Below, piece by piece: positions 5,200 to 62,700 of a stretch of DNA of 64,000 nt. The notes under the pieces were generated by a model, which was not told the origin of the DNA, ran no database searches, and saw only the letters and a list, made by a program, of their open reading frames with translations. A program made the translations under genes and the position numbers. The stretch is taken from NCBI GenBank assembly GCA_009602725.1, contig WELB01000010.1:125950-189949 (forward strand), in the 5' to 3' direction. Position 1 is the stretch's first letter. The number at the start of each line of letters is the position of its first letter. The stretch comes from Spirogloea muscicola. Its lineage: Eukaryota > Streptophyta > Zygnematophyceae > Spirogloeales > Spirogloeaceae.

Positions 5200-6330
5200 C
5201 CACTTCTAGCCTTACAGATGTCCTGGTAACGGGGTAATGAGTTGGCTAAAGGGGGCACTATTATCCTCGAGTAAGCACATACATATCTGACAAGCTAAGC
5301 TGAGGAGCCAGACCACCACGGAGGCCATTAACCTGGCCTAATGCACGCCCAGCACGCTGGTGTATCGCGAGTGCCTGGGAGCGCTGCAGACTCAATGATA
5401 GCCGCATTTGATAGCCGAGAGGTCTTTCCTCGGTGGAAGCAGCCGTCCGCCGCATAGCCCGAGGGCGCTGACGCCATTGTGGGAGGTATCAGTGGTCGAC
5501 GACCCATGTGGTAATTTGGTCCCGTTGGTCCTATGATGGAAGAAATTTTCGTGCAGTTGAAACAGACGAAAGCCAAAATGGCCAAGTACAGAGGCAAGCG
5601 CAGCTGATGACGTAGATCCCCCCCTGCAAATCGACCCGCTCAATAACCACAGGTCAACACGTTAAGGTTGCTACTCGATGACTACCAGATGGCAGATTCG
5701 AAGCCCTTCTGCCACCAACTAGAGCTCGCCCAGCTTTCTGGTGCAAAGCATGAGCCTGAGCACGCTGCACACAGGCTGACACTCGTCGTCAAAGAACGCA
5801 GCTGGCAAGCCCATCTCAGCCAGAAGCACATCTGCACGTTGTGCATAGCCTAGATTGGCAACATTCTGAAGGAGAGGGTGGAAACGAGGACCTAAACAGC
5901 CAAAGATATCGACTGCAGCTGGTAGGAGCTGATCGCATGGGGGGTATTTGAAGTAATGTTGCAGCTTTCTGTGTTCTGCACTCCCCACTGCGTAGCCAGC
6001 GATGTGCGTCAATGCTGGACCTGTATAAGCCATCCGTAATAATGTCAACCAAGGCCCATGGTCCTCCACCAGGTTGCACGCCCCACAATATCAAGGGTGC
6101 AACGATGATGACGTCCCTGGGCATCCGTGGTCATAGGCATGATACTGTTCACTTCGATGACCGCATGGTAACCAGTGTCATGCATCAAACCCGTCAAACC
6201 TGCCCGGTGGAAGGAGTAGGGAGTGGTGCTTTTGGCATCCCTTTGAAGTCGAACTGTGGCTCCAAATGCACGTTCTCACTGCTGGGCACCTTGGCGGCCT
6301 TTCAGTCTCTCGTCTTCCAACACGTATAGC
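5200..6330 (-). mobile_element. Degenerate retroelement 3' end, second subfamily
   Basis: Pieces in two frames read (minus) GVQPGGGPWALVDIITD, then HIAGYAVGSAEHRKLQHYFKYP and CSVLRLMLCTRKLGEL, matching the nuclease-like domain and C-terminus of the subfamily seen intact at 34.7-35.3 kb. At least one frameshift separates them (near 6060). The stop-codon hairpin follows, imperfect, at 5631-5657. A further fragment ending DMYVLTRG lies at 5261-5460. Confidence 0.7.
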
Positions 6331-30359: not shown

Positions 30360-31130
30360 GAGATGGGGAGGCCATGTGTGGCCAAGTACAAAGGCAAGCA
30401 CATTGACAAATGTACGTCACCTGCTGCTAAGCTGACCGCTCAGTAACCATGAGTCAGCACATAGAGGTCGCCAACTGATGCTCGAATACCGGACGGCAAC
30501 CGACAAGCTCTTGTACTACCAGCCAAGGCTCGACCAGCTTTCTGATGCAACGCATGAGCCTGAGCTCGCTGCAGACAAGCTGACATTCGCCGTCGCAAAA
30601 ATGACAGATTGGCTGCCGGCACACCCATCTGGGCTGAAAGCATATCCTCGCGTAGTGCATATACCAGACTCGCTATGTTCTCAAGTAGGGTATGGAAGCG
30701 AGGACCCAAGCAGCCGAAAATGTCGATTGCGGCCGGGAGAAGGTGGTCGCTGCGGGGGTAGTCAGAGTAGTGTCGGAGCTTTCTCTGCTCAGCACCTCCC
30801 ACTCCGTGGCCAGCAATGTGTGTAAGCGGAACTTTTATATGCCTCGGTCACCACCACATCCGCCAAGGCTCGTGGGCCTCCGCCAGGTTGTACACCCATA
30901 ATGTCCAGGGTGCGACGGTGATGGGGACCCTGGGAATCCGTGGTGATGGGCATTACATTGCTTACTTCCACGGTGGCGCGGTAGCCGGCGTCGCGCATCC
31001 AGCCCGCCAGGGCGTCTCGTAGGCGATTGTGGACGCCCACCACCTCAGGGCCTGTGAGACACCGCAGCATGTGGGTGGCTAGGTCTCCGCCCTCTGAAGG
31101 GCTCCGGTTCTGGCATCTAGTATTCATGCA
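30360..31130 (-). mobile_element. Retroelement nuclease-like domain, second subfamily
   Basis: Minus strand reads EGGDLATHMLRCLTGPEVVGVHNRLRDALAGWMRDAGYRA, HHRRTLDIMGVQPGGGPRALADVVVTEAYKSS, EQRKLRHYSDYPRSDHLLPAAIDIFGCLG, ACLQRAQAHALHQKAGRAL and ends SVGDLYVLTHGY-stop, with one frameshift near 30800. The stop-codon hairpin (with a one-base deletion) is at 30431-30458, then the 3' tail GTGCTTGCCTTTGTACTTGG on the minus strand. Confidence 0.8.
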
Positions 31131-31140
31131 TCGATTAGTG

Positions 31141-31545
31141 ACCTTTATGTTTTGACCCGTGGTTATTGAGCGGGTCAATCTGCTGTAGGTTATGTAGATC
31201 ATTAGATGTGCTTGCCTTGTACTTGGCCATTTGGCTTACATTTGTTTCTAATACACGGAATTCTCCTTCCCTTCCTCTCCTTGGAGATCCGCAGCTGGCG
31301 CTGGCCATCCTTACTCGCTGCATTGGTCAACGAGCTGGCTACATGCAGCGAACAGTCGCCCCAACGGACATGGTGGGCGAGCTGTACAAGGAGTTCGACA
31401 CCTTCCTCCTGCAAACCCTGGCTTCCCTGATTCAACATTCATCCTTCCCCTCACCTTCGACCTCCCAGCAGGCATCCCTTCCCTTTTGCAGCAGCCTCTG
31501 GTTTGCGCAGCGGGGTTGCTCTTCCTCCCCTCAGCTCATCTGACT
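31141..31545 (+). mobile_element. Retroelement tail joined to RT thumb fragment
   Basis: Starts with the stop-codon hairpin and tail (TGCTGTAGGTTATGTAG, TTGTACTTGGCCATTTGG), then at 31280-31430 reads DPQLALAILTR and MVGELYKEFDTFLLQTLASLIQH, a reverse-transcriptase thumb piece. Two partial elements end to end. Confidence 0.6.
31152..31178 (+). other. Stop-codon hairpin of retroelement ORF, subfamily 1
   Basis: TTGACCCG (31152-31159) and CGGGTCAA (31171-31178) are perfect reverse complements around an 11-base loop containing the TGA stop (31167-31169). Same arms at 38769-38795 (+), 38506-38532 (-) and 62148-62174 (-). Confidence 0.8.
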
Positions 31546-31693: not shown

Positions 31694-34170
31694 GTGGACC
31701 TGGACCCGGCTGTCTTCCGTCGGGCGATTGTGAGTAGCCGCAAGGCAGTCGCCGGGGGTCCATTGGGCATGCTCTTTCAGCACTTGCGGGAGCTGTATGG
31801 GGAGGACGACTCGGAGGATTTCGATCTGCTGCTTAGGGTCGCGCAACATGTTGCGCGTGGACACCTCACCCATCGTGTAGGCGCAGTCCTCTGCACAAGC
31901 AATTTCATTGCTTTGCAGAAGGACAGCGGGGGAGTGCGTCCTATCTCGATGGGGGAGGTTCTGTCGCGCCTCGTGGGGCGCATCCTATAATTATGCAGAT
32001 CCAGGAGGATGCCCAGGCGCACTTCCATCCCCACCAGTTTGGGGCTGGGATGCGTGCTGGCGCTGAGACCCTGGTGCACGGGGTATGAGCGGCACTGGAT
32101 GTCAATCCCCATTGGCTGGCCTTGAGCGTGGACGTACAGAACGCCTTCAACTCCGTGGATCGGCAGGTTTTGCCGAGGAGCTAAGGCAGTACTTTCCCAC
32201 ACTCCTCCCTCACTTCCGCTGCATGTATGGCTCGCCATCTGCATTGTTGTGGGGGGCAGGGACTTCTTTGGCTGTTCTGCAGTCAAAGACGGGGACACGC
32301 CAAGGTGATCCAATGGATGGTTTCCTCTTCGCTCTGGCCCATCACCGTGCTTTGCGCAACACGGCGAGCGCTCACCCTGGCGTTCTCCTCCCGAGCTATG
32401 CGGATGATACCACGCTCCTCGGCCCCCCAGAGGAGGTGCTGCGAGCTTTCGGCACGCTTCAGCACCAGCTCCAGCTTATCGGGCTTGGGGTCAATCCGGC
32501 TAAGTGCTCTGCCTGGTCCCCCATTGGCATCCCCCTTTCCCTCTTCCCCTCGTTGCCGACATCTTGTCAGACTCCAGAGGGCGGCTTGAGGATCTTGGGA
32601 GTGCCACTAGGCGACCCGTCTTTCTCGGAGGGTGCTGTCCTTGCTCGTCGCCAAGGATACATGCAGGTCCTGCCAGAGCTCCCCAGCCTTGGGGACTCTC
32701 AGTTGGCAGTGGCCATTATGACCAGGGGTGTAGCACAGCGGCCGTGCTACCTCCTGCGTACGGTCTCACCATCGGTCAGCTTGGATGCTATCTATGCATC
32801 CATTGATGTCAAGCTTCAGCAATGCCTTGCTGATCTGATTGCTCACCCACTCCCAGAGCAGTCTCCAGCAGCACTGGTGCAATGTACGCTGCTCATACGC
32901 CACGGTGGGCTTGGTTGTCGCCCCTTGGTCCGCTTATGCAGACCAGCGTACCTTGGCTGCTGGGCTCAAGTGGCTTCGTCCATATCTGGACGATTCCTCC
33001 TTGAGCAACAATGTGTACTGGCGCCTCACATCAGTAACGTGGTTCAGGGGAGTCTGCCTTTCCAAGTGACTCTCAAAGAATGCCAACAGGACCTCTTCGC
33101 CGCATACCCGCCTCTGGTGAATGAGCCTGTTAGTTTTGCTGCCTGGGCTGACGTTTCTGATGTTAAGGCTCAATCGCGGTTTTTCCATGCTGCAGATGAG
33201 CAACCACTGGAACATCTCCGGAGTCTCCTCCAAGGGGATGCTCGAGGCCAGGCTCGGCTCCTATCTGTTTCGTCTCTGGGAGCGTCTGAGTGGCTCCGCG
33301 CTTTGCCTTCGCATGCGGGCTTGCGGATGGAAAATGCTCTTTTTTGCGATGCTATGCGCCGCCGCCTTGGCTTACCATCCCTGTGCTTGGCAGGGGTGAC
33401 CCAATGTGAATGTGGGCTTATTGAGCATGATGCATTGCTCATGGGTGACCACATGCTCAGGTGTGCCAGAGGCAGTGAGTGCACGGGCTCCCACAACCTC
33501 CTACGTGACGCCATGTATGGCATCGTCAAGGAGGTGGCATATCAAGTGGCGTTGGAGAGCACCGGGGTGATGCCCGTCCAACTCCGCAACGGGGTCCCTC
33601 GGACGAACGTTCTCCTGGGAGGTGGTAAGCGGCTCCTCATGGACGTCGTCCTAACCGACAGCTTCCGGATGAAGGGCCCCATTACTTTTGAGACCGGCTA
33701 TGCCGTGAAGGTGGCCGAACAGAAGAAATTGCACAAGTACAAGGACCACCAGGCGGGTGATACCTTTTACACCCTGGCCATGGATATCCATGGGTGTTAC
33801 AGGGGTCGGTGGTCCTCGTTACATTTGCTGCTGGCCTCTCAAGCTGACCAGCGGCGCCGGGAACAGGGTGCAGCCCTTCCCGGTGGCTCGGCCCCTTTGG
33901 ATCTTGTTTCCTGCTACCCAATGCGTCTATCTGTGTGCCTACAGCGGTCCCAGGCAATTGCTTTGCATCGCCGGGCTGGTCGCGCCCTTGCAGCAGCCTC
34001 TGGTTTGTGCAGCGGGGTTGCTCTTCCTCCCCTCAGCTTCATCTGACTTCCTACTGCTGACACGGGGGTATTGAGGGCGCCCTGTCTGCCTAGCCTTTGG
34101 CTCCGTCATGAACACCTGTATGCATCTGGCTGGCAGTTTACAGCCGATTCTTGAATATCAGCAGCCGCTT
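31694..34170 (+). mobile_element. Best-preserved RT plus nuclease-like retroelement (copy 1)
   Basis: 31694-31987 gives the RT start (GGVRPISMGEVLSRLVGRIL) and ends at TAA 31988. RT motif A (SVDVQNAFNSVDR, about 32125-32163) is in another frame. From about 32170 one frame runs to 34046: motif B TRQGDPMDGFLFAL, motif C YADD (SYADDTTLL), PAKCSAWSP, GLRILGVPLG, thumb, then zinc motif CECG...HMLRC (C-x-C-x12-H-x3-C), LMDVVLTDSF, EQKKLHKYKDHQ, AMDIHGCYRGRW and VCLQRSQAIALHRRAGRA. After a shift the frame ends SSDFLLLTRGY-stop at 34064-34074, followed by a tail block. No apurinic-type endonuclease is visible upstream. Two frame shifts and one stop make it inactive as it stands. Confidence 0.9.
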
Positions 34171-35480
34171 TGGCTTTCCCACACGAATGGGTAGCCTGGG
34201 CTGCCGATCACTTGAAGAGACGGCGCAGGCAGCCTTTCTCGGTTGCTGGCACCAGGTTGCCTCCCTCCTCCCCTTGCGCTTCCCGTGTCTGGTGGGCCCA
34301 GCAGCCGAGGTGGAGCAAGGCTCCTTCGCCTTCCAAGTGCAATTGAGGAGCATCCAGGAGTCAGCAATCTGCTCCTTCCCCTGCAACCCCTTCTCACCCC
34401 CTTCTTAGCGCTGGCCCAAGCACCGGACAAAGCGGCACAGGCCAGACTCGTTGCTGCAGTTGAGGATGAGCGTTGCAAGTCGCTGAGGACGATGCCAGAT
34501 ATCAGTACCAATCCAAGGAGTCTGGCACGTCTCACATCGCTCGCAACAACTGCGGCATTGGACTGGCTTACAACGCACGCCATCCACAACGCTTTCAGAT
34601 TCAGCCCCGAGGCATTCTGGACGCTTCTCCAGCTGTTCCTCGGCCTACCCCCGACCTGTCTGATTAGAGTAACTCATTATGAGTGCTGCTTCCGTGCGGA
34701 GGGCGGAGACCTTGCCACCCACATGCTGCGGTTTCCCACAGGCCCGGAGGTGGTGGGCGTCCATAACCTCCTACAGGACACCCTGGCTGGCCTGATGCGC
34801 GACGCCGGCTACTGCGCCATTGTGGAAGTAAGCAACGCAATGCCCATCACCACGAAGTCCCAGGGACGCCATCATCGTCGCACCCTGGACATTGTGGGTG
34901 TACAACCTGGCGGTGGCCCACGCGCCTTGGTGGACGTGGTGGTGACGGAGGCATACAAGAGCTCCGCTTCCACACACATGGCTGGCCACGCAGTGAGAGG
35001 TGCTGAGCAGAGAAAGCTCCGACACTACTCTGACTAACCCTGCAGCGCTAACCTCCTACCGGCAGCAATCGACACCTTTGGCTGCATGGGCCCTCGCTTC
35101 CACACCTTACTGCAGAATATTTCAAGCTTGGGGTACGCCCGACGTGAGGATAGGCTTCCAGCTCAGATGAGCATGCCGGCAGCCTATTTGTCATTCTTGC
35201 ATCGTCGTGGGTCAACTTGTCTGCAGCGAGCTCAGGCTCATGCGTTGCATCAGAAAGCTGGTCAAGCCTTAGCTTTAGCTCAAGAGCTTGTCGATTGACG
35301 TCCAGTACTCGAGCATCAGTTAGCGACCTCTATGTGCTGACTCGTGGTTACTGAGCGGGTCAGCTGAGCAGCAGGTGACGTACATATAACAATGTGCTTG
35401 CTTTTGTTCTTGGCCACACATGGCCCTCCATCTCTTTATACACACGCATTCTCTTCTGGGACGCCACCTACTTATACAAA
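34170..35480 (+). mobile_element. Retroelement, second subfamily, 3' part
   Basis: One frame, 34243-35037, reads the RT linker (ALAQAPDKAAQARLVAAVEDER...LARLTSLATTAALDWLTTHAIHNAF), a damaged zinc motif (CCFRAEGGDLATHMLRF, last Cys lost), HHRRTLDIVGVQPGGGPRALVDVVVTEAYKSS and EQRKLRHYSD-stop. The C-terminus continues from 35086 (DTFGCMGPRFHTLLQN, CLQRAQAHALHQKAGQAL) in another frame and ends SDLYVLTRGY-stop at 35352-35354. The 9-bp stop-codon hairpin is at 35336-35364 and the 3' tail follows to about 35460. Confidence 0.85.
35336..35364 (+). other. Stop-codon hairpin of retroelement ORF, subfamily 2
   Basis: GCTGACTCG (35336-35344) pairs with CGGGTCAGC (35356-35364) with one T-G wobble. Same arms at 47235-47263 (+) and 36509-36537 (-). 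Relative to subfamily 1 the second outer pair changes from T-A to C-G on both sides. Confidence 0.8.
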
Positions 35481-38400
35481 GTAGTAAGCAGCCGAAGAGA
35501 GCGCTCTCTTTTGGCTCAACGAGATATTGCTCTTGAACAGAGCTCTTGATAGCTACTCTGTCAGATTTGAGGCTCCTCACTCGTTGCTATTGAGTGATTC
35601 ATCCTACCCTGTTTTCAGAATTGCGCTTTTGGCCCCTTCCTACTTTGGCCCCTTCGAACCTTGGCAAATCTTTCGGCTGGCTTCTCACAGCCCTTGCCCC
35701 ATTGAGAGAGCCACTTCTCTTGAACGAAGGGGAGGGCAGGCTCAGACGGATGGTCGGGACTAACAGGGTGGAGCACATACAAATTCGACGGGCTATTTTG
35801 GGAAGTTGGAGCAACGCCACGGAAGCCAGTGGCCTGTTTAAGAGAGAAGGCGCGCGGAGCGCATGAAATGATAGGGTGGCTTATCAAAGCCAATACATTT
35901 CAGGCAAAAGCTAATGCACAAAGTCGTGCTACATAAATTGAAGCTCAAGACTTCAGGTGGCTAAGATAACAGTGTGACGTTAGTACCCGCAAGTGAGCAC
36001 ATCAAAGAGAGGAAGAGGCTTCCAGGAGTGGGCGGTGGCTGGGAGAGGCCAGCCCAAAGAAATGATGAACATAAAAACCCGACAGGTTAACTCGGGGAGC
36101 CGGTGCGCCGCCACGGAAGCCGAAGTTCTAGGAGCGCACCCAGCACTTTGATGAAAAGTGTGGCACAGACTGGCGGAGCTGACGAGAGCGCCAGCCGGGA
36201 GGAGAAAATGGAGAGCAACGGAGTCTTGAGGGGCCTGAGTAGAGGCCACGTCCAAAGGCGAAGGCGAGGATGAGTAGGTGATAAGGGCAGGCGCGCACGA
36301 ACTGGGGGTCGCGGCGTCATGCGCAAGCGGCAGATACGGAGATCTCGGGGCTGGACGTCGCGGCGGGCGGCGGGGTGGGGCGCCCGTACCAGCCGCCGCG
36401 CGGCGCGGTGCGGAGGTGGAAATGCGTGTATATTAAGAGATGGGGAGGCCATGTGTGGCCAAGTACAAAGGCAAGCACATTGGACAAATGTACGTCACCT
36501 GCTGCTAAGCTGACCCGCTCAGTAACCACGAGTCAGCACATAGAGGTCGCTAGCTGACGCTCGAATACCGGACGGCAATTGACTAGCTCTTGTGCCAGCA
36601 GCTAAGGCTCGACCAGCTTTCTGATGCAGAGCATACGCCTGAGCTCGTTGCAGACAGGTTGACACTCGACGTCGCAGAAATGACAGATTGGCTGCCGGCA
36701 TACATACGGAGGTGGAGGTGCGCGCAGCGGCACTGTTGTTGGTCTTCGACTTAGGAAAAAGCTCGCCCATAGAAGAGGGGCTGGCAGAAGCCAGCCAAAA
36801 AAGAATGGACCATTGCCAAAGAGCTACAGGAGAATCACTTAGTAACCTTTGCTAAGCAGCCGCAGGTCGGAGATGCTAGGCTTCGACTAAGCGCTTTTCT
36901 GGCCCCTTTAAATGTTATGCACTCCTTTCTTCTGGGCTGGCCAATAACAGCCATCGCCCTCAACTGGAAGTTAAAAGAAGAGTATCTCTCTTTTCTGGCT
37001 CCTTTGATCTTCGCCTCCTCTCCTGGAAGCGTCTTTCTTTCTTCGATCTTGGATCATTCCGTTTTCTTTCTTCTTTCACCTTGACCACCTTAGGATAGCG
37101 CTCATTTCAGGTAGCCCCACGTTTTGCACTAGCTTTCGCCTGAACAGTGTATTGCTAAAGCTGGCCACTCTTTCGTTCATGTGCTCCGCGGGCCTTATTC
37201 TGCGCTGATCACAGCCATCGCCCTCTTTGGAAGAGTCTCACTCTCTTTCATTCTCTCTTCCTAAATTCTTGCGGCGGCGGTAACAACAAGCGAGCTCGTC
37301 CAAGGGGGGCGGGGTCTGTAAATGGCCAGCCCATATAGAAAGAACACGGTCAGAAGGGCCGAATGTCGCCAGAACACACAGCTATGCAAGAGACTACAGC
37401 GCATCTGACAATACCTGTCTCAGCGAGCGGGTACCTGTCTCAGCGTCAGTACCTGTCTCAGCGGTCCCCGGAGAGTCCGCTGCGCCGCGCGGCGATCGCC
37501 GAGAGATGCGGCGAGATCCACGGAGCTCGCGCCGCCGCAGCCGCTTCTGCGCTTGGGCGCCGCGGCGCGCCGCGCGGCCGGCGAGGCGCGAGGTCGCGGC
37601 GGGCCGCGGCGGGGGGTTTAAATCCTCACGATAATTCTCACTGGGCGAGCTACTTTCTTCCGATAATCACTCTCTAGGCTGGCCAATCACAGCCATCCCC
37701 CAAGTTTGAAAGAAGTCTCTTTTCCTTTCCAAGCCCCTCGGAGTCTTTGGTGGGGCGTGCGGGATCAGACGAAGGCTCACGCGGTGTGCGTGCATCGGGA
37801 GACCTTTTTACACCTGGTACATTCCTTCGGGCTGGTCTCACAGCCATTGCCTTACATTGGAAGAGCTGTTTCCTAGAGGGAGGCCTATTTACGCCGATAC
37901 ACCTTTCAGACAGGAAGCCAGTGCAAAAATTGGGGCTACCCAATGCGGAGCTTTGCGCTGAGGGGGGGCTGAGGTGACAGAGCAAAAGCGGGAACAATGG
38001 GGGCTTTGAGTTCCGCGATCACGAATGAGCACACATCGTATTCGACAGGCTAAGTTGGGCAGCCGGAAAGGGTTTGAAAGGAGGCGCGCGGTGCACATAA
38101 GATGAGAGGGAGGCCAAAGCAAGCCAGTACACAGGTCAAGAGAAATATATATGTAGGTGAGAGAAGTAAAATCTGCATACAGGAGAAAAGCTGAGAGACC
38201 GGAACACCGCCACACAGGCCAGTGGCCCGGGCGTGCGCGCCCAGCAAGCTTGCTGGGAGCAAGCTGATGTGCATGTAGCACAGCCAGAAGAAGGAAGTGC
38301 TCGCCCGTTGAAGAAGAAGGCGCGCTCGAACTTTTTTCAGTCTTTTCTGGGCTGGCTTTTCCCAGCGCCCTATCCTCATTGGGCGAGCCCCTCTCTGTGC

Positions 38401-38890
38401 GCAGAGCAGGAGAAGGAAAAAAGATCGTGTATTAGAAAGAAATGTAGGCCAAATGGCCAGGTACAAAGGCAAGCACATCTAAAAATCTACATAACCTACA
38501 GCAGATTGACCCGCTCAATAACCACGGGTCAAAACATAAAGGTCACTACTCGATGCATGAATACTAGATGCCAGGAACGGAGCCAAAGAGAAGGGAGTGG
38601 TGCGGAGCTTCCCAGCTTACTCTTTCCTGGACCTTGTGAATACTTTTCGGGTTTTTGTCATTCTTCTTCTGGATTGGCCAAATCTGACATCGCCCTCCAC
38701 TAGTTGGTGGCAAAAGGGCTCCGTTTCTGGCATCTGATATAAATGCATCGAGTAGTGACCTTTTTATTTTGACCCGTGGTTATTGAGCGGGTCAATCTGC
38801 TGTAGGTTATGTAGATCGTTAGATGTGCTGGTCTTTGTACTTGGCCATTTGGCCTACATTTGTTTCTTATACACGGAATGTTTCTTCACT
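35480..38890. mobile_element. Mosaic of retroelement tails and hairpins
   Basis: No gene. Contains GGCTGG/CCAGCC hairpins near 35672, 36033, 36778, 36936, 37678, 37829 and 38349; border modules at 35840-35900 and 38085-38125; subfamily 2 ORF ends on the minus strand (36425-36690, hairpin 36509-36537); subfamily 1 tails at 38440-38560 (-, hairpin 38506-38532) and 38740-38880 (+, hairpin 38769-38795). Bases 37470-37620 are very GC-rich without a motif. Confidence 0.65.
37408..37463 (+). repeat. Three direct copies of a 14-mer
   Basis: TACCTGTCTCAGCG occurs three times with spacers of six and four bases just before a GC-rich block. Meaning unknown. Confidence 0.7.
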
Positions 38891-40056
38891 GGAAGAGACT
38901 CTCTCTTTCGGGCTCGCTTTGGTCACAGCGCACGCCCCACCTTGGCGAGCTGCTGCTTCTTCTTTCCCGGCGGGGCGGACGGCGGCGTGGACACGAGCGG
39001 GGGGGGCGATGGACGGCTTGCCGCACGGGCGAGCCAGGGCGCCGGCCGACCTTCCGCATCGAGTGGAGTGAGGACCGGCGGGGGATGCGGGCGCGCACCT
39101 CGGCACGCCCCGGCGCCCGCGGCCCCCGCAGCGGCGGTTCGTGGGCCCTACCGGAAAAGATCGTCGCACGAGCGGGTAGCTGCTGTTGTTTGGGGCGAGC
39201 GCGCGCGCCTCGTATCGAGCTGCAGATCCCGGCGACCGGGTGGAGACGAGAGCGGACCGCCGGGGGCGACAGGGCGCGCCGTCTTGGGGAGCCGCGGATC
39301 CCCGCTCCACGATGAAAGCCACCGCCGCGGCGATAAGGCGCGCGCTTCCACGAAAGGTGAAGATGGTGGAAGCCGCGCCGCTTTTTGGCCGCGGGCAGGG
39401 CAGCCGCTTGCGCTCCCGTCTGGGGCTGCGAACAGAAGGGGATCCCCCCACGATTAGCAAACCCGCCCCTGACGGTGATACGGGCAGCCCGCTCGTTCCG
39501 ACCGCCCGACCCGGCCCCCAGCCGCCCGACCGGGCGCCAGGCTGGCCGCCCAGGGCGGGTCGTGCGGGCGCCCCCTGGCCTCCGCAGACCTCACCTGGAC
39601 GGCAGGCCGCGACAGCGCCCCGGTGGCGCCCAAGTGCACCTGGGAGGTACGCGACGCCCGCGCCGCTGCGGCCAGGGCCTGCAGGAGACGTTCCGGGCGC
39701 GGGTGCCCCGGCGGGGAGGGGGGTGCCCGGGGCTCTGTCCCACAGCGGTGAGGGGCCGGCGCCGCCCACGGGAAACATTACGATGTGGAGCCTGCGCTTC
39801 GGAGGGGAAGGGGGGACGCCTTTGGAGGGGGCCGCCGGGCGAGGCGCTCGGCGGGGGCGTGCAACCGGTGCCGGGGGGGGCAGCTGCGGCAGCTCCAACC
39901 ACTGCCGCCCCGCACGCCCTGCCAGTCAGCCCCGGCGGGCGGAACCCCCCCCCCCCCGGCCCCTTGTTCCCCCGCCTCGGAGCTCCAAACCCTCCGACCC
40001 CGCGCCTCGAACCCGCCACTCTTCCGCCGCCCACCCCCTCCTTCCCCCCGGCCGCC
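38890..40056. other. GC-rich 5' region of the bHLH gene
   Basis: Long open frames exist on both strands because of base composition, but they read as Arg/Pro/Gly repeats without motifs. A C run lies at 39947-39957. Probably promoter and 5' UTR. Confidence 0.5.
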
Positions 40057-41496
40057 ATGTCCGCCATGGAGCAGCTGGTGGCCGGCGTGATCGCCCAGCA
40101 GCTCCCCGGCGCGCTGGCCGGCCTCAACGGCCTCCCGCAGCCGCTGCTGCAGCAGGCCGCCGCGCTCTCGCTCTTGCGCCAGCTCCGCGCCCGCCAGCCC
40201 CAGCAGCCCACCGCGCCGCCTCCGCCGCCGCAGGGCTTCGGCCACGCGGAGCTGGCCCAGATGCTGGCCCTGCAGCAGCCCCACGCGGCGCAGATGCCGC
40301 CCGCCCAGCTCGTCCAGGCCGCCGCCCAGCAGCAGCAGCAGCAGCAGCAGCAGATCCAGCAGCTGCAGCACCTCCAGCAGGCGCAGGCCATGTTCGGCGC
40401 CGGCGGCGGCGGCGGCGTCAGCCCGACCAGCGTCCTGCCCGGCGGCGTCTCCCACGAGCTGCTGTGGAAACTGCAGCTGCTGCAGCAGCAGGAGCGCCTA
40501 CGGGCCAGCCCGGCGAGCCAAGCCATGGCCATGCTCGGCGGCGGCGACTCCAGCCGCCTGCTGCTGGCGGAGCAGTGCGAGGAGTCGGCCGAGCCGGCCT
40601 CGGCGACTGCCGCCGCGCCCGTGACGCCGTCGCCCGTCTCTGCTGCCGTCGCCCCACTGCCGCCGGCCCCGCAGATGTCCCATCATCTCGATCCGCTCGC
40701 GGAGTTCTCGCTCGGCGGCGAGCCCGAGAACTGGTGCGACGCCCTCCTGTGCATGGACGACGCAGGCCTCCCCGACTCGTCGCTGCTTGCCAACCTCGAC
40801 CAGCTCGGCTGCGGCGGCGGCGTCGGCGACTGGGCGCCCCCCCGCTTCTTCCTGCAGCCGGAGATCAACGAGGTCAGCGCGTCGGCAAGCTCCGGGTCGT
40901 CTGGCAAGCGGGTGCACTGCGAAGCTGCATGGCAGCCCGAGAACTCCTCCCAGGAAGACTCTTCTGCGCCGTCTGCCAGTGGCCCCCGCCCTGCCAAGCG
41001 CGTCTGCGTGGAGCAAGCACAACCAACAGCAGCCGCGGCTCCTGCAGCAGCGGCAGTCCCTGCAGCGGCAAAGTTTGAGGCTATGCCTGCGGCCAAGCTT
41101 GAGCTCCTCTCGCCGCCGTCGCCTGCTGCTGATGTGGAAGCCGCAGCCCTGGCCAGCCCCTTCGAGGAGGATGACAACGACAATGACATCGACAACGAGG
41201 GTGAGAACGAGGGCGAGTCTCCACCGGCACCTGCTGTAGGATTGGACGGTGCCAAGATGTCGCCCGTGCTGGAGCCAGCAAAGCCGCGGCAGAAGCGCGG
41301 CACTGCCACGGATCCCCAGTCGCTGGCAGCGCGTGCACGCCGCGAGCGCATCAGCCGCAAGCTGCGCACGCTGCAAACACTTGTGCCCAACGGCAACCGG
41401 CTCGACACTGCCACGATGCTGGACCAGGCGATCGAGTACGTCCGCTTCCTGCAGCTGCAGCTCCGGAACAAGAACAGCAACCACTACGCCCTGTGA
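40057..41496 (+). CDS. bHLH transcription factor (479 aa, single exon)
   Basis: ATG 40057 follows GCCGCC and opens a frame to TGA 41494. The head is Gln/Ala/Leu-rich with a polyGln tract (40327-40353), then acidic Ser/Pro segments. The C-terminus holds the DNA-binding domain: KRGTATDPQSLAARARRERI (basic region with the E-R-R pattern), SRKLRTLQTLVPNG (helix 1), loop, TATMLDQAIEYVRFLQLQL (helix 2). This is the plant RSL/LRL-type bHLH signature. No intron interrupts the domain, unlike many plant members. The frame remains open upstream of 40057 but that part is low-complexity, so I prefer this start. Confidence 0.9.
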   Translation: MSAMEQLVAGVIAQQLPGALAGLNGLPQPLLQQAAALSLLRQLRARQPQQPTAPPPPPQGFGHAELAQMLALQQPHAAQMPPAQLVQAAAQQQQQQQQQIQQLQHLQQAQAMFGAGGGGGVSPTSVLPGGVSHELLWKLQLLQQQERLRASPASQAMAMLGGGDSSRLLLAEQCEESAEPASATAAAPVTPSPVSAAVAPLPPAPQMSHHLDPLAEFSLGGEPENWCDALLCMDDAGLPDSSLLANLDQLGCGGGVGDWAPPRFFLQPEINEVSASASSGSSGKRVHCEAAWQPENSSQEDSSAPSASGPRPAKRVCVEQAQPTAAAAPAAAAVPAAAKFEAMPAAKLELLSPPSPAADVEAAALASPFEEDDNDNDIDNEGENEGESPPAPAVGLDGAKMSPVLEPAKPRQKRGTATDPQSLAARARRERISRKLRTLQTLVPNGNRLDTATMLDQAIEYVRFLQLQLRNKNSNHYAL

Positions 41497-46269: not shown

Positions 46270-47350
46270 TTTTTTCTGGGCTGGCCTCTCCCAGCCACCG
46301 CCCTCTCCTGCGCTGGCCCAAGCACCGGACAAAGCGGCACCGGCCAGACTCGTTGCTGCAGTTGAGGACGAGCGTCGCAAGGCGTTGAGGACGATGCCGG
46401 ATATCAAGGATAATTCAAGGAGTCTGGCACGTCTCACATCGCTCGCAACGCCTGGGGCAACGGATTGGCTCACCACACACGCAATCCACAACGCTTCAAA
46501 ATCAGCCCCGAAGCATTTCGGACGCTTCTCCAGCTGTCCTGGGCCTGCCTCCGACCTGCCTGATTGGAGTAACTCAGTGTGAGTGTGGCTTCCGTGTGGA
46601 GGGCAGAAACCTAGCCACCCACATGCTGCGGTGTCCCACAGGCCCTGAGGTGGTGGGGTCCACAATCTCCTACAAGACGCCCTATAGGGCTCGATGCGCG
46701 ACGCCGGCTACCGCGCCATTGTCGAAGTAAGCAATGTCATGCCCATCACCACGGATTCCCAGTCGCCATCACGGTCGCACCCTGGACATTGTGGGTGTAC
46801 AACCTGGCGGAGGCCCACGAGCCTTGGTGGATGTGGTGGTGACCGAGGCATGCAAGAGTATCCGCTTCCACACACATGGCTGGCCACGCAGTGGGAGGTG
46901 CTGAGCAGAGAAAGCTCCGACACTACTCTGACTACCCCCGCAACGACCACCTTCTCCCGGCCGCAACTGACACTTTCGGCTGCTTGGGTCCTCGCTTCCA
47001 TACCCTACTTGAGAACATAGCGAGTCTAGGATATGCACGACGCGAGGATATGCTTCCAGCCCAGATGGGTGTGCCGGCAGCCTGTCTGTCATTTTTGCGA
47101 CGTCGAGTGTCAGCTTGTCTGCAGCGAGCTCAGGCTCATGCGTTGCATCAGAAAGCTGGTCGAGCCTTGGCTGTTAGTTCAAGAGCTTGTCGATTGCCGT
47201 CCGGTATTCGAGCATCAATTAGCGACCTCTACGTGCTGACTCGTGGTTACTGAGCGGGTCAGCTTAGAAGCAGGTGACATACATTTGTCAATGTGCTTGC
47301 CTGTGTACTTGGCCACACATGGCCTCCCCATCTCTTAACACACACGTTCT
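46270..47350 (+). mobile_element. Retroelement, second subfamily, 3' part (copy 2)
   Basis: Begins with a hairpin (46279) joined to RT linker sequence (ALAQAPDKAAPARLVAAVEDERR), then zinc motif (CECGFRVEGRNLATHMLRCP, C-x-C-x12-H-x3-C) near 46580, IVGVQPGGGPRALVDVVVT-like sequence near 46790-46850 with shifts, and one frame 46876-47253: GAEQRKLRHYSDYPRNDHLL, FGCLGPRFHTLLENIASLGYARRED, LQRAQAHALHQKAGRAL ending ISDLYVLTRGY-stop. Stop-codon hairpin 47235-47263; 3' tail to about 47345. Close to the 34.2-35.5 kb copy. Confidence 0.85.
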
Positions 47351-49620
47351 CCTGGAAGCGTCTTTCTTCTTCGAAGAACAAGTCAGCCAAGTCAGCCAGC
47401 CACCAGTGGCCTTACGAGCCATCGTCAATTCTTTTCGGGCTGGCTTCTCACAGCCCTTGCCCCCATTGGGAGCCACTTTTCTTCCGAGCACTCGAGCTTT
47501 CGACTGCTCGCTAGGCAAATGGAGTGTGTTTCGCTAGGGCATATTGAGCACCCAACGGCCACTTTAGCCGCCATTCGTTTTGCCCTTTTCTGGCCCCTTC
47601 GGATGTGGTTCGTCATGTCTGGGCTGGCCATCACAGCCATCGCCCATCTACTGTAAGCACGTCCCAGTCCAACCCGCTGCCGCGGGCGCGGGCGTCGAGC
47701 CGCCGCGGACGCCAGCGTCCGGCCCGCGGAAAGGGGGAAGGGTTGGCCACCACGAGGTGGTCGCAGCTAGTCGCGCAATACTCCTCCCGCGAGCGACGTC
47801 CTTTTGCGCCCGCTGCGCCACGTGGCGCCGCGCAGGGTGGCGCGCCCTGGGCACGCACCGGCACGTGCCCGCCACGCAGCAGGTGGCGCCCAGGATAAAT
47901 TCCGACAAGAAACAAATGTAGGCCAAATGGCCAAGTACAAAGGCAAGCACATCTAAAGATCTACATAAGGGCGGGCGGCTCCACCGTATCAAAAGGGAAT
48001 TATGTCTTCTGGCATTCTACATAAGTAATTTTGGCTTGCAACGTTTACAGCTGGTTATCCGATGGACACATGTTCACCAGCGGCCACTCCAAGACTCGTC
48101 ATTGCCCTCCGACATTTGCCTTATAAGCCACGAAGCTCTTATTGCAATGACCATGATAGGGTTCATAAGGGAACATGAAGGAATCAATAAGTCACTCTGA
48201 CGAATTTAAATGCCCGCCCCCACCGCCCGTTTACGCGTCGCCCCGATTGCGGAGCGAGAAAGCGCTTTTCTGGATATGTTCGTCTTTCCAGGCGGGCCAA
48301 TCAAAGCTAGCGCCCTCTTCTGGAAGAGTCTTTCACCGCAGAAGAAGCTGTTCCACAGGGAGCGGGCGGTGACTGTGAAGAGGTAAGTTCTTCCCACGAG
48401 AGGGCGATGATTGTGTGACCAGGTAGGTCATGAAAAAGAAGAAGGTGCTCGCCCATTGAGAAGAGGGGCTGGCAAAGCCAACCCAAAAAGAATGGACAAT
48501 GTTCAAGGCCAAAGAAAGAGGTGCTGAAAAAGGACGACACTACAAAGTGCAAGATGGTGCAGAGGGAGATGCAGATGGCTGCTCAGTATCCACGTGTGAG
48601 CAACAGCAGATCAGAGTAACTCGGAGCAGGAGAAGCGGCACTTTGCCGAGACCCGGAAGCAGCTGCCATAGCACGGCCAGCCCGCGCGTGGACCGCATGA
48701 AAAAGGACGGACAGGATTCAGTGGGGAGGGAGTCCTAACACAGAAGCGCAAATCATCGGCCGAGAAGCCGTTCGTAGAAACAAGGGGACCCAATGTCAAC
48801 AGCGACAAATTCGCTAGACAAGAGGGGTAGTCTTCCAAGAAAAAGCTGGAAGAGCTGCTTCTTCTTTCCAAGGGGTCGAGCGCGGTGACAAAGGAATGGA
48901 AGATATTCAGCCCACAAAAGAATGACAAGGTCCAAATGTTGCAGAAAATCGAAAGTTTCTGGCGCACCGCCTGTAATGAGAAAAGAATTAGCTCTGCCCG
49001 TGTAAGGCCGGTAGCTCTAGACCGTAGGCTCGCAAAATCCCGGAAGATGTGAAAGTACCGGTCCGGCCTCAGCCTGCTACGCGGGGCTGAGAGCGCCGAC
49101 CCCGTGCCTGGCGGCACGTCTGCCGGAAAGTTACCGGCGCGGGGGCGCCCCGCCGGTCGCGCCTCGTCGTCCCGTGATCAAGCTCTTCCTCTCTCTGAGA
49201 GGAAGACCTTGTCCAATCCTTTGGGCTGGCCTCTCACAGCCACTAGTCAGTCTGCCGCGCTTTTTCTGAGAACCCAGTCCACGGCTGTTGATACTCTTCC
49301 CGAGTAGCAGTGAGCACTTTCAGACAAGAAAGTGCTCTCCCATATTTCATCATAGAAGCGAGAGGGGGCGGGGGCTGTGAAATACCAGCCCAGAAAGATC
49401 GAACAAGGTCCAAACAGCAGCTCGTCCAATTCAAGGCAGTGGCTGGGAAAGGCCAGCCCAAAACGAATGGACAAGGTCTTGTCACGAGAACCTAGACCAT
49501 GGCCGTGTAGGCGCTAAGTGCCAGAGGAAAGGCAGCTCCGTGTAGACTTTAAATGGTCACAGCAGTCCCGGATCTTCGAACCAGCCGCAATGTATCTCGA
49601 GTGGTGGATGGCAGGTGACA
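47350..49620. mobile_element. Retroelement tails and hairpins, no gene
   Basis: GGCTGG/CCAGCC hairpins near 47439, 47621, 48468, 49222, 49369 and 49440; a subfamily 1 tail at 47910-47970 (TGTAGGCCAAATGGCCAAG, minus); a tail block at 48440-48680 shared with 20930-21250 and 62440-62700. Bases 47650-47890 are GC-rich without a motif; 48690-49200 shows nothing recognisable. Confidence 0.55.
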
Positions 49621-59305: not shown

Positions 59306-61303
59306 GTGGTGTTGGCAGTGGACGTCCGCAACGCGTTCAACTGCGTCGACCGCGCAGCTGTCGCCGAGGAGCTCCGTGATGCCTCCCCCACCCTGCTGCC
59401 GTTCTTCCGGCTGGGCTACGGCCAGCCCAGTGATCTCCTATGGCGACTTGGAGCCGGAGGGGTGGAGGTCCTTCAGTCTTCCACGGGCACGCGTCAGGGG
59501 GACCCGCTGGCGGGGTTCTTCTACGCGCTGGCCCACGACCGCGCCCTGAAGGCCACGGCAGCTGCTCACCCGGGCGTCCTCATGCCCACGGATGCCGACG
59601 ACACCACCCTAGTCGGGCAAGCAGACGAGGTCTTGGCTGCCTTTGCCACCCTCGAGGAGCAGCTGAAGGAGATCGGCCTGGACATCCACGCGTCGAAGTG
59701 CAGCGCTTGGTCCCCACAAGGGTTGCCAGCCCTCCTCCACCTACCCTCCGGCTGTCAGACACCAGCGGGGGGCCTCACACTCCTCGGGGTTCCCTTGGGC
59801 TCACCGGCCTTCGTGGACGAGCAGCTGCGCGGCAAGCTGCAGGAGTACCTCAAGCCGGCGGCCCGCCTCCCTGAGCTGCACGACGTGCAGCCAGGGCTCG
59901 CCATGCTGACGCGCAGCATTGCGCAACATCCCCTGTACCTGGCTCGAGCCCTCCCCCCCTCTCCGGCGGCGCAGGCCGCTTACGCAACCTTCGATGCAGG
60001 TATCCTCGCCAGCACAGCGGCCCTGGTCCAACACCCGGCCTTCCTGGCGACGCCGGCTGCCGTGCACCAGGCCTCCCTGCCTGTGAGCCGCGGGGGTACG
60101 GGCTGCCGTCCGCTGGCTCGTGCCTGCCGGGCAGCACACCTGGGGAGTTGGGCGCAGGTTGCGGCTTCGGTGGCCCAGCGTTTCATTCGGCATGGGGGTC
60201 GCCTTCTGGAGCAGGCGGCAGCGGACGTGGAGACTGGCACGTTGCCCGTCCAGGCGGCTCTCCGCTCAGCCCGGGATGCGCTGCTTGCAGATCACCCCGC
60301 TCTGGTGCCACGGGCCGTCCCGTTTGCGCACCTCGCGCGCACGGTCGACCTCCGGGCCCAAGCTCGCTTCATGGCAGAGGTAGATGCGGCCTCCTTCACC
60401 ACAGCGATAGGGCTCTTGCCATCGGCCGACCTCTGGAGGCGGGGGCGCTCGCGGTTGCTCTCGGCATCCTCACCAGGGGCGGCAGCTTGGTTGTCTGCCC
60501 TGCCGATCCACGACGCGCTCCGAATGCCCGATGACGCCTTCCGTACGGCGGTGCACCGCCTGCTCGGCCTCCAGCCACCCTGCCTCAGTGGATTACAGTA
60601 GTGTGAGTGCGGAGAGGGCAGTTCAGACGCGGCATTGCTGGCAGCTCACATGCTCAGGTGCGCACGGGGCGGGGAGCGGACAGGAACACACGACCTGCTG
60701 CGGAATGCAATGTTTGGCATCTTTGTCGAGGCCAATTACACACTGGCGCTCGAGAATACCAGCATCATGCCTCCGACCGCGGGGGCGGATGGCCGCATCC
60801 ACACCCGGCGGGCCGATCTCGTCGCCAACGCGCTCGGCGGGGGGCCTCGGCTTATCACCGACGTTGTCACGACTGATTGCTTTGATTCCAGCAGCGCCAA
60901 ACGCTCGTCGGAGGAGGCGGGCTACGCAGTCTGCCAAGCGGCGGGCGCGAAGGAACAGATATTCTCGGACCACCCGGTGGGAGACGAGTTTGTTCCACTG
61001 GCAGTCGACGTGCACGGAGCCTTTGGCACAAAATGGCTTGACTTGCTTCACCGCCTTGGCGGCGTGCAGCAGCCTGCCGCCTCCTGCCTCGGGCAGCAGG
61101 GCGAGCAGCCCGGCTTCAATGTCGCCAGCTCCCTCGCTCAAGTCTTCCGAATGCGGTTGGCCATCTCGATGCAGCGGTCCCTTGCCTTCGCGGTTCACTT
61201 GCGCGCAGGCTGAGCTTTGGCGGCGGCCTCCAGCTTCCGTCAGGGCGACGTCTTTCCGCCGGCTAGGTACTCAGACTTGCATCTCCTGACTAGTGGTTAC
61301 TGA
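59306..61303 (+). mobile_element. RT plus nuclease-like retroelement (copy 2, nearly open)
   Basis: A single frame from 59306 to the terminal TGA 61301-61303, broken only by TAG 60599-60601 and TGA 61211-61213. Order: RT motif A LAVDVRNAFNCVDR, motif B TRQGDPLAGFFYAL, motif C DADD (first Tyr of YADD is Asp here), SKCSAWSP, GLTLLGVPLGSP, thumb, zinc motif CECGEGSSDAALLAAHMLRC (C-x-C-x12-H-x3-C), LLRNAMFGIFVEANYTLALE, RRADLVANALGGGPRLITDVVTTD, AAGAKEQIFSDHPVGDEFVPLAVDVHGAF, AQVFRMRLAISMQRSLAFAVHLRAG and DLHLLTSGY-stop. The RT fingers are missing at the 5' end (truncated), as is usual for non-LTR elements. Inactive because of the motif C change and stops. Confidence 0.92.
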
Positions 61304-62139: not shown

Positions 62140-62700
62140 TACAGCAGATTGACCCGCTCAGTAACCACGGGTCAATACATAAAGGTCGCTAATCGATGCC
62201 TGTATACTAGATGGCAGATACGAAGCCCTTCTGCTACCAACTAGAGCTCGCCCAGCTTTCTGGTGCAAAGCATTAGCCTGAGCACGCTGCAAACTGGCCG
62301 AAACTCGTTGTCGCAAGAACGACAGATATGCAGCTGGCAAGCCCATCTCAGCCGGGAACTTATCTGCATATCTTCTTCTATGGGCGAGCCATTTCTTCTT
62401 TTTTGGGCAGGCCATCGATCATCGGCAGGGTCCGCAAGAAGAAGAAGGAATGCTCGCCCATAGAGAATGGGGGCTGGCAAAGCCGGCCCAAAAAGAATGG
62501 ACAATGTCCAAAGCCAAAGAAAGAGGTACCGAAAAAGGACAACACTACCAAAGACGACCACGCACTAGGGAAGCTCAGTACCCGCGGGTGAGCAACATCA
62601 GGTCGGAGTAGCTCGTTGCCGAGAGAGAGGGAAGGAGGCACTCCGCCGAGACCCGGAGGCCGCGGCCAGAGCACGTCCTGCGCGTATGTGGACGGCGTGG
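62140..62700 (-). mobile_element. Two minus-oriented retroelement 3' ends
   Basis: Stop-codon hairpin 62148-62174, ORF end SISDLYVLTRGY and VCSVLRLMLCTRKLGEL-like C-terminus to 62370; then hairpin 62468 and the tail block shared with 20930-21250 and 48440-48680, and a second C-terminal piece at 62660-62770. Confidence 0.7.

Follow-up and report, generated by a model that had tools for sequence, protein, structure and literature searches.

Inverted repeats that span the stop codon and can fold into a hairpin are found at the 3' ends of non-LTR retrotransposon copies. These hairpins are confined to one clade of high-copy element ends, comprising families A and B and the older lineages Q, P and O. 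Our favoured reading, held with a little less than even confidence, is that they represent an inherited RNA stem-loop that works in the element's own sense RNA, likely as part of the 3' end bound by the reverse transcriptase (RT). The repeats can fold, do so beyond what shuffled sequences achieve, are present in some old copies, and show an excess of kept pairs among widely inherited substitutions. The window, by which we mean the whole 64-kb stretch of DNA analysed, lies on contig 10 of the assembly that was searched (153 Mb, 471 contigs), and copy numbers were high, with at least 150-155 places per protein query. All comparisons were made within this one genome, and divergence inside the A/B/O clade is small. 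The window contains the following stop-spanning hairpins.

31152..31178, plus strand: family A hairpin, arms TTGACCCG(T)/(G)CGGGTCAA, stop codon TGA in the loop, -13.1 kcal/mol
38506..38532, minus strand: family A hairpin, -13.1 kcal/mol
38769..38795, plus strand: family A hairpin, -13.1 kcal/mol
62148..62176, minus strand: hairpin of lineage Q (older A), with an extra outer A-T pair, -14.2 kcal/mol
35336..35364, plus strand: family B hairpin, GCTGACTCG(T)/(G)CGGGTCAGC, -15.2 kcal/mol
36509..36537, minus strand: family B hairpin, -15.2 kcal/mol
47235..47263, plus strand: family B hairpin, -15.2 kcal/mol
30431..30458, minus strand: family B copy with a decayed hairpin, -7.5 kcal/mol
5630..5658, minus strand: hairpin of lineage P (old A), 10 pairs with wobbles, peptide LTCGY, -12.0 kcal/mol

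All nine stop-spanning inverted repeats listed in the initial annotation were present, one of them off by a base: in the minus-strand copy at 62 kb the 8-bp core occupies 62149-62175, shifted one base from where it had been placed. Judged by energy, the stem has 9-10 pairs including the T-G pair beside the loop, and the hairpin loop consists of nine bases (GGTTAYTGA) with the stop codon inside. The 5' arm would be formed by the last codons of the open reading frame (V-L-T-R) and the 3' arm by roughly ten bases that directly follow the stop. The young A family has lost the outermost pair (T-T in 54/61). Decay of the copy at 30431..30458 (-) left the 3' arm one base short and the R codon altered. 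The hairpin of the 5.6 kb copy, which had been called imperfect, still forms its 10 pairs by using wobbles (-12.0 kcal/mol). Its LTCGY peptide, a change of CGT to TGT, was seen in four of the five lineage P copies inspected (window 5628-5661 on the minus strand, L232, L237 and L241), and reflects either a shared lineage or repeated CpG decay. The reported pair that is T-A in one subfamily and C-G in the other, changed on both arms, is real outside the window as well, being T-A in 49 of 52 distinct A copies and C-G in 53 of 56 distinct B copies. The pair that alternates between C-G and a T-G wobble likewise held up beyond the window.

To place these hairpins among related elements, the loci and the window were scanned for stop ends resembling L-T/S-R-G-Y. 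This yielded 155 distinct ends (208 in total, some window copies appearing twice), which fell into eight families (A-H) plus ten singletons. The majority of the A and B copies had been fetched by similarity to a peptide containing LTRGY, and the family C loci L010-L038 with a query stopping short of LTRGY. Each family was represented by one real copy, in which the 40 bases following the stop were shuffled 1000 times; in a second variant, synonymous codons were randomised as well as the untranslated region (UTR). Fold energy gave P=0.002 for family A with the UTR shuffled and 0.001 with codons randomised too, and P=0.008 and 0.003, respectively, for family B. Families F (P=0.027 and 0.039) and E (P=0.064 and 0.069) have weaker hairpins, which pair other bases. 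A stop-spanning hairpin was not beyond chance in family C (P=0.29 and 0.14), family H (0.41 and 0.42), family D (0.75 and 0.66) or family G (1.0 in both variants). With eight families allowed for, A is notable, B is borderline and not independent of A, and F is not notable. The stop-spanning hairpin is not general among the eight families with an LTRGY/LSRGY end.

When scored by the longest stem including G-U pairs, A was not significant (P=0.10) and B was (P=0.026), while Watson-Crick pairs only gave P=0.0005 for A (8 bp) and 0.035 for B (6 bp). Folding in context placed the A hairpin above 50% in 69 of 74 copies and the B hairpin above 50% in 30 of 67 copies with longer context and 43 of 67 with shorter context; the B hairpin is often not dominant because upstream pairing competes with the stem. 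A further, outer helix that joins coding GUGACCU to UTR AGGUUAU when the A copy is folded was discarded, since by reading it is not kept in B. Among the lineage O copies, L226 forms 12 pairs at -21.2 kcal/mol (matched by 0/500 shuffles). L213 (P=0.008) and L030 (P=0.01) also fold better than shuffles; L209, L224 and L225 are no better than shuffles.

The window also holds element ends of other families.

32085..34046, plus strand: part of a family C element open reading frame encoding a reverse transcriptase (RVT_1); near the end it is not in the same frame as LTRGY
34057..34074, plus strand: family C C-terminal LTRGY-stop codons, hairpin not beyond chance
48583..48600, minus strand: family D LTRGY-stop codons, hairpin not beyond chance in the family representative
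61286..61303, plus strand: LTSGY-stop end of another copy (tail like family G), without the hairpin

The initial annotation had added that the copy at 34.06 kb can pair around its stop. It can (-7.3 kcal/mol), but no better than chance (P=0.14-0.29 for family C), and it was rejected as a copy sharing the hairpin.

It had further been suggested that the hairpin may explain the fixed LTRGY peptide, the codons being fixed by RNA structure. In A and B the 5' arm does overlap the codons for L, T and R. However, families C, D, G and H keep the LTRGY/LSRGY end without a hairpin beyond chance, E and F pair other bases, and the Leu, Thr, Arg and Gly codons vary. Comparison of one A copy (L004) with one B copy (the window copy at 47 kb), in which 64 of 85 C-terminal residues are identical, revealed synonymous codon differences at 3 of the 5 LTRGY residues versus 32 of 59 shared residues upstream, so that the LTRGY codons are no more conserved than the rest. 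LTRGY is accordingly a motif of the protein, and the hairpin does not account for it. We rejected the link between hairpin and peptide, to which we give next to no credence as it is already contradicted. LTRGY is best read, from the sequences at hand, as a protein-level C-terminal motif with a cause other than the hairpin.

A motif-free repeat of the search, relying solely on a 29-residue block further upstream and covering the window and loci of 1 kb or more, recovered 113 distinct copies with a downstream stop, 85 of them with a tail of 15-32 residues; the tail measured 23 residues in 64 of the 113. An exact LTRGY or LSRGY end was found in 55 of the 85 tails, a proportion drawn from a biased sample in which many loci are family D copies fetched with an LTRGY-containing query, and the 30 other ends arose in many cases by frameshift or decay. 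Within the 55 exact ends, Leu is encoded by CTG, CTC, TTG or CTT, Thr by ACT, ACC, ACA or ACG, Arg by CGT, CGG, AGG or AGA and Gly by GGT or GGG, with two Tyr codons and the stops TGA and TAA. The tails of families A-H end in SDLxxL(T/S)RGY-stop after a conserved LQRxxAxAxHxxAGRA block. The C-terminal tail of these families appears to be under protein-level constraint. LTRGY would thus be kept separately, as the protein's C-terminus, and the codons of the 5' arm would be subject to two constraints in the A/B/O clade and to one in the other families. If this is true, hairpin-less sister families within one genome offer a comparison by which the RNA constraint on these bases can be told apart from the protein constraint.

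The initial annotation also proposed that selection acts on RNA structure at this site. We aligned 108 distinct A/B copies and then added older copies by DNA similarity. The old copy in L030 gave 24 matches including itself; the other 23 were fetched, and most of them are old B copies. Lineage O consists of six copies assigned by eye (L030, L209, L213, L224, L225 and L226), and the labels Q and P denote copies whose best BLAST query was the window copy at 62 kb or 5.6 kb, respectively. The first tree test used 167 distinct copies, a midpoint root and 9 pairs. In this test 38 of 76 changes from the paired state kept pairing against a null of 0.435 (P=0.17), and double changes were kept twice against a null of 0.96 (P=0.25). 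Branches of at least three copies showed 6 kept, 3 broken and 1 restored. The 3' arm underwent 4.11 changes per column versus 8.15 in the rest of the UTR, mostly in single copies, a pattern that speaks for ascertainment or mutation rate no less than for selection.

These results bear on a less favoured but quite possible account, that the structure is inherited but functionless. The ancestor of A, B and O would have had a chance inverted repeat whose pairing persists passively, the peptide keeping the coding arm and sequence conservation, low mutation or chance keeping the 3' arm. This account is consistent with the negative first tree test, the scarcity of 3'-arm changes of all kinds, the low divergence within the clade, the weak signal of the 3' arm alone (below), and the six of eight families that have the same protein end without a comparable hairpin on the same bases. 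It is opposed by the contrast between inherited and private changes and by the base-matched null described next, as well as by the long stem of L226 in lineage O and by a second outer pair that covaries.

Our initial reading of "no covariation" (P=0.17) was revised once the data included three further O copies, L226 served as the root and inherited changes were split from private ones. The resulting 170-row tests, including the inherited/private contrast and the base-matched null, counted L224 twice. With 9 pairs, 42 of 82 changes kept pairing over all branches (P=0.096) and 12 of 14 on branches of at least three copies (P=0.005); with ten pairs the corresponding counts were 51/95 (P=0.045) and 17/20 (P=0.004). 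A crude tally of rescues and doubles in the 170-row test was far below its null. The cut-off of three copies, the choice of 9 or 10 pairs and the root were all picked after seeing the data.

For the inherited/private contrast, changes present in at least three copies were compared with those in single copies, two-copy changes being left out, on 30 trees (the first and 29 bootstraps) built without the stem columns. Pairing was kept by 10/10 inherited changes versus 34 of 71 private ones (34 kept, 37 broken; P=0.001), and over the 30 trees the median P was 0.012 (range 0.000-0.422, below 0.05 in 26). Ten pairs gave 15 kept and 1 broken versus 40 and 40 (P=0.001, median 0.008). Removal of a site of repeated A/G flips left 7/0 versus 24/32 kept/broken (P=0.005, median 0.026, below 0.05 in 19/30). 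The non-coding 3' arm alone gave 5/0 versus 17/13 with 9 pairs (P=0.081, median 0.19, below 0.05 in 4/30) and 8/0 versus 20/15 with ten (P=0.021, median 0.18, below 0.05 in 8/30). When two-copy changes were added to the inherited set, 11 were kept and 7 broken on the full tree. Under the base-matched null, P was at most 0.010 in 25/25 trees built without stem columns for changes in at least three copies, and at most 0.070 for those in at least two; the partners in this null come from UTR columns that vary more, and its result therefore also benefits from plain conservation of the 3' arm.

Pairs were also counted directly on 36 lineage-balanced rows (31 distinct). Three pairs had changed on both sides among the distinct rows (A-U/G-U/G-C, U-A/U-G/C-G and again U-A/U-G/C-G). 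The proportion of cells paired was 93.9% versus 90.8% in shuffles that ignore relatedness (0/500 as high) and 26.5-48.1% in slid controls. There are two clear double changes, G-C to A-U in the outer pair and C-G to U-A in the next; they fall on one branch of one (full) tree and on successive branches in the trees of the other tests, and so amount to nearly one event. Selection on RNA structure therefore receives moderate support in one clade, though the events are few and some versions of the test do not show it: an excess of kept pairs appears among inherited changes (10/10 kept), but not in the first test (P=0.17) or in the 3' arm alone with 9 pairs (P=0.08), and it is weak once two-copy changes are counted. 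Selection on the stop-spanning hairpin within the A/B/O clade is plausible, not proven.

Where wobbles have become fixed in lineages, they read U-G on the sense strand; the opposite strand would carry A-C mismatches at these places. The pattern is consistent with folding of the element's own RNA and not of DNA or antisense RNA. Under our favoured reading, the hairpin would act in that sense RNA, most likely as an upstream element of a structured 3' end that the element's RT binds before target-primed reverse transcription. It may work together with a second hairpin near the 3' end, GGCY..RGCC, and would then be an extra, clade-specific upstream part of one 3' domain shared with it. That the RT recognises the 3' end through the stop-spanning hairpin, as raised in the initial annotation, is possible; the GGCY..RGCC hairpin is the better candidate for it. 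Two copies of the latter in the window are given here from sequence, the test being at family level.

35412..35425, plus strand: 3'-terminal hairpin GGCC-ACACAT-GGCC of a family B copy
38843..38854, plus strand: 3'-terminal hairpin GGCC-ATTT-GGCC of a family A copy

GGCY..RGCC ranks first among the local hairpins in each of the eight families, one representative being examined per family; the stems differ, and its distance to the 3' end, which was placed approximately by eye, is 7-37 bases. Its P values for A-H were 0.060, 0.099, 0.029, 0.001, 0.514, 0.139, 0.029 and 0.003, that is, below 0.05 in four of the eight. The motif occurs in 134 of 165 copies of the A/B clade versus 0.8% of shuffles, mostly as shared sequence, and in none of the three O copies examined. 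In L210, L218 and L209 the 3' tail has, by eye, small deletions that join GCTTGCC to ..AGGCC; a GCC..GGC hairpin would thereby be restored at that position.

The class of the element was examined with family C. Locus L010 carries 751 aa of open frame with an RT domain (Pfam RVT_1, E 1.5e-17), and no Pfam match beyond RVT_1 was found in that frame; a PDB search with the window open reading frame returned no matches. The best solved relatives of the family C RT domain are R2 proteins (E 1.8e-5 and 2.3e-5), although L1 ORF2 scores nearly as well (7.5e-5). After the RT domain there follow a Cys/His cluster (CECG..H..C) and an R..D..DVV stretch, which, by motif reading, we take as a putative CCHC motif and restriction-like endonuclease resembling those of the R2 group. 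The 3' flanks of the copies are not shared. Searches of Rfam at gathering scores and a tRNA scan found no matches.

In stringent-type LINEs (UnaL2, ZfL2-1 and ZfL2-2), passages of PMC4176376 describe a stem-loop in the 3' tail that is bound by the element's own protein and whose mutation lowers mobility. The present elements resemble these in the non-LTR-like RT of the family C frame and in a small stem-loop close to the RNA 3' end, here the GGCY..RGCC hairpin. The stop-codon hairpin does not correspond to that stem-loop, four families having none beyond chance; unlike the stringent 3' tail as those passages present it, it is half coding, ends about 80 nt upstream of the approximate 3' end in A and B (by eye), belongs to one clade only and is known here from sequence. 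No stop-codon hairpin of comparable kind was found in literature searched at the level of abstracts and passages, including PMC4176376 and PMC4640811. A more specific proposal, which we consider rather doubtful, is that within this clade the final codons both encode the invariant C-terminus and form a hairpin arm, the RT recognising an RNA domain across the coding/non-coding border. If true, a LINE 3' recognition domain would extend into coding sequence. Independently of that proposal, the LTRGY end kept without the hairpin and the GGCY 3' hairpin of eight families offer two testable handles on how the element finds its own RNA.

Control of translation, by termination, readthrough or re-initiation at the stop codon, is an improbable role for the hairpin. 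The loop does hold the stop codon, but the frame after the stop is not conserved between the family A copy at 31152 and the family B copy at 35337, whose read-on peptides share only their first three residues and end after 11 and 7. Known readthrough hairpins are located 3' of the stop, and a stem enclosing the stop codon would be unwound by the ribosome. Nothing in the frames read in these two copies favours the readthrough or termination that had been suggested.

Copies of the same element also lie in inverted orientation within the window. One close pair, 38426-38584 and 38717-38875, is 91% complementary and 132 nt apart, and another, 30521-31101 and 34692-35274, is 83-87% complementary and about 4 kb apart. 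Adjoining the element cluster, positions 39385-41496 of the plus strand contain an open frame of 703 aa that encodes a helix-loop-helix domain towards its end (Pfam HLH, E 1.6e-7) and is possibly a host gene.
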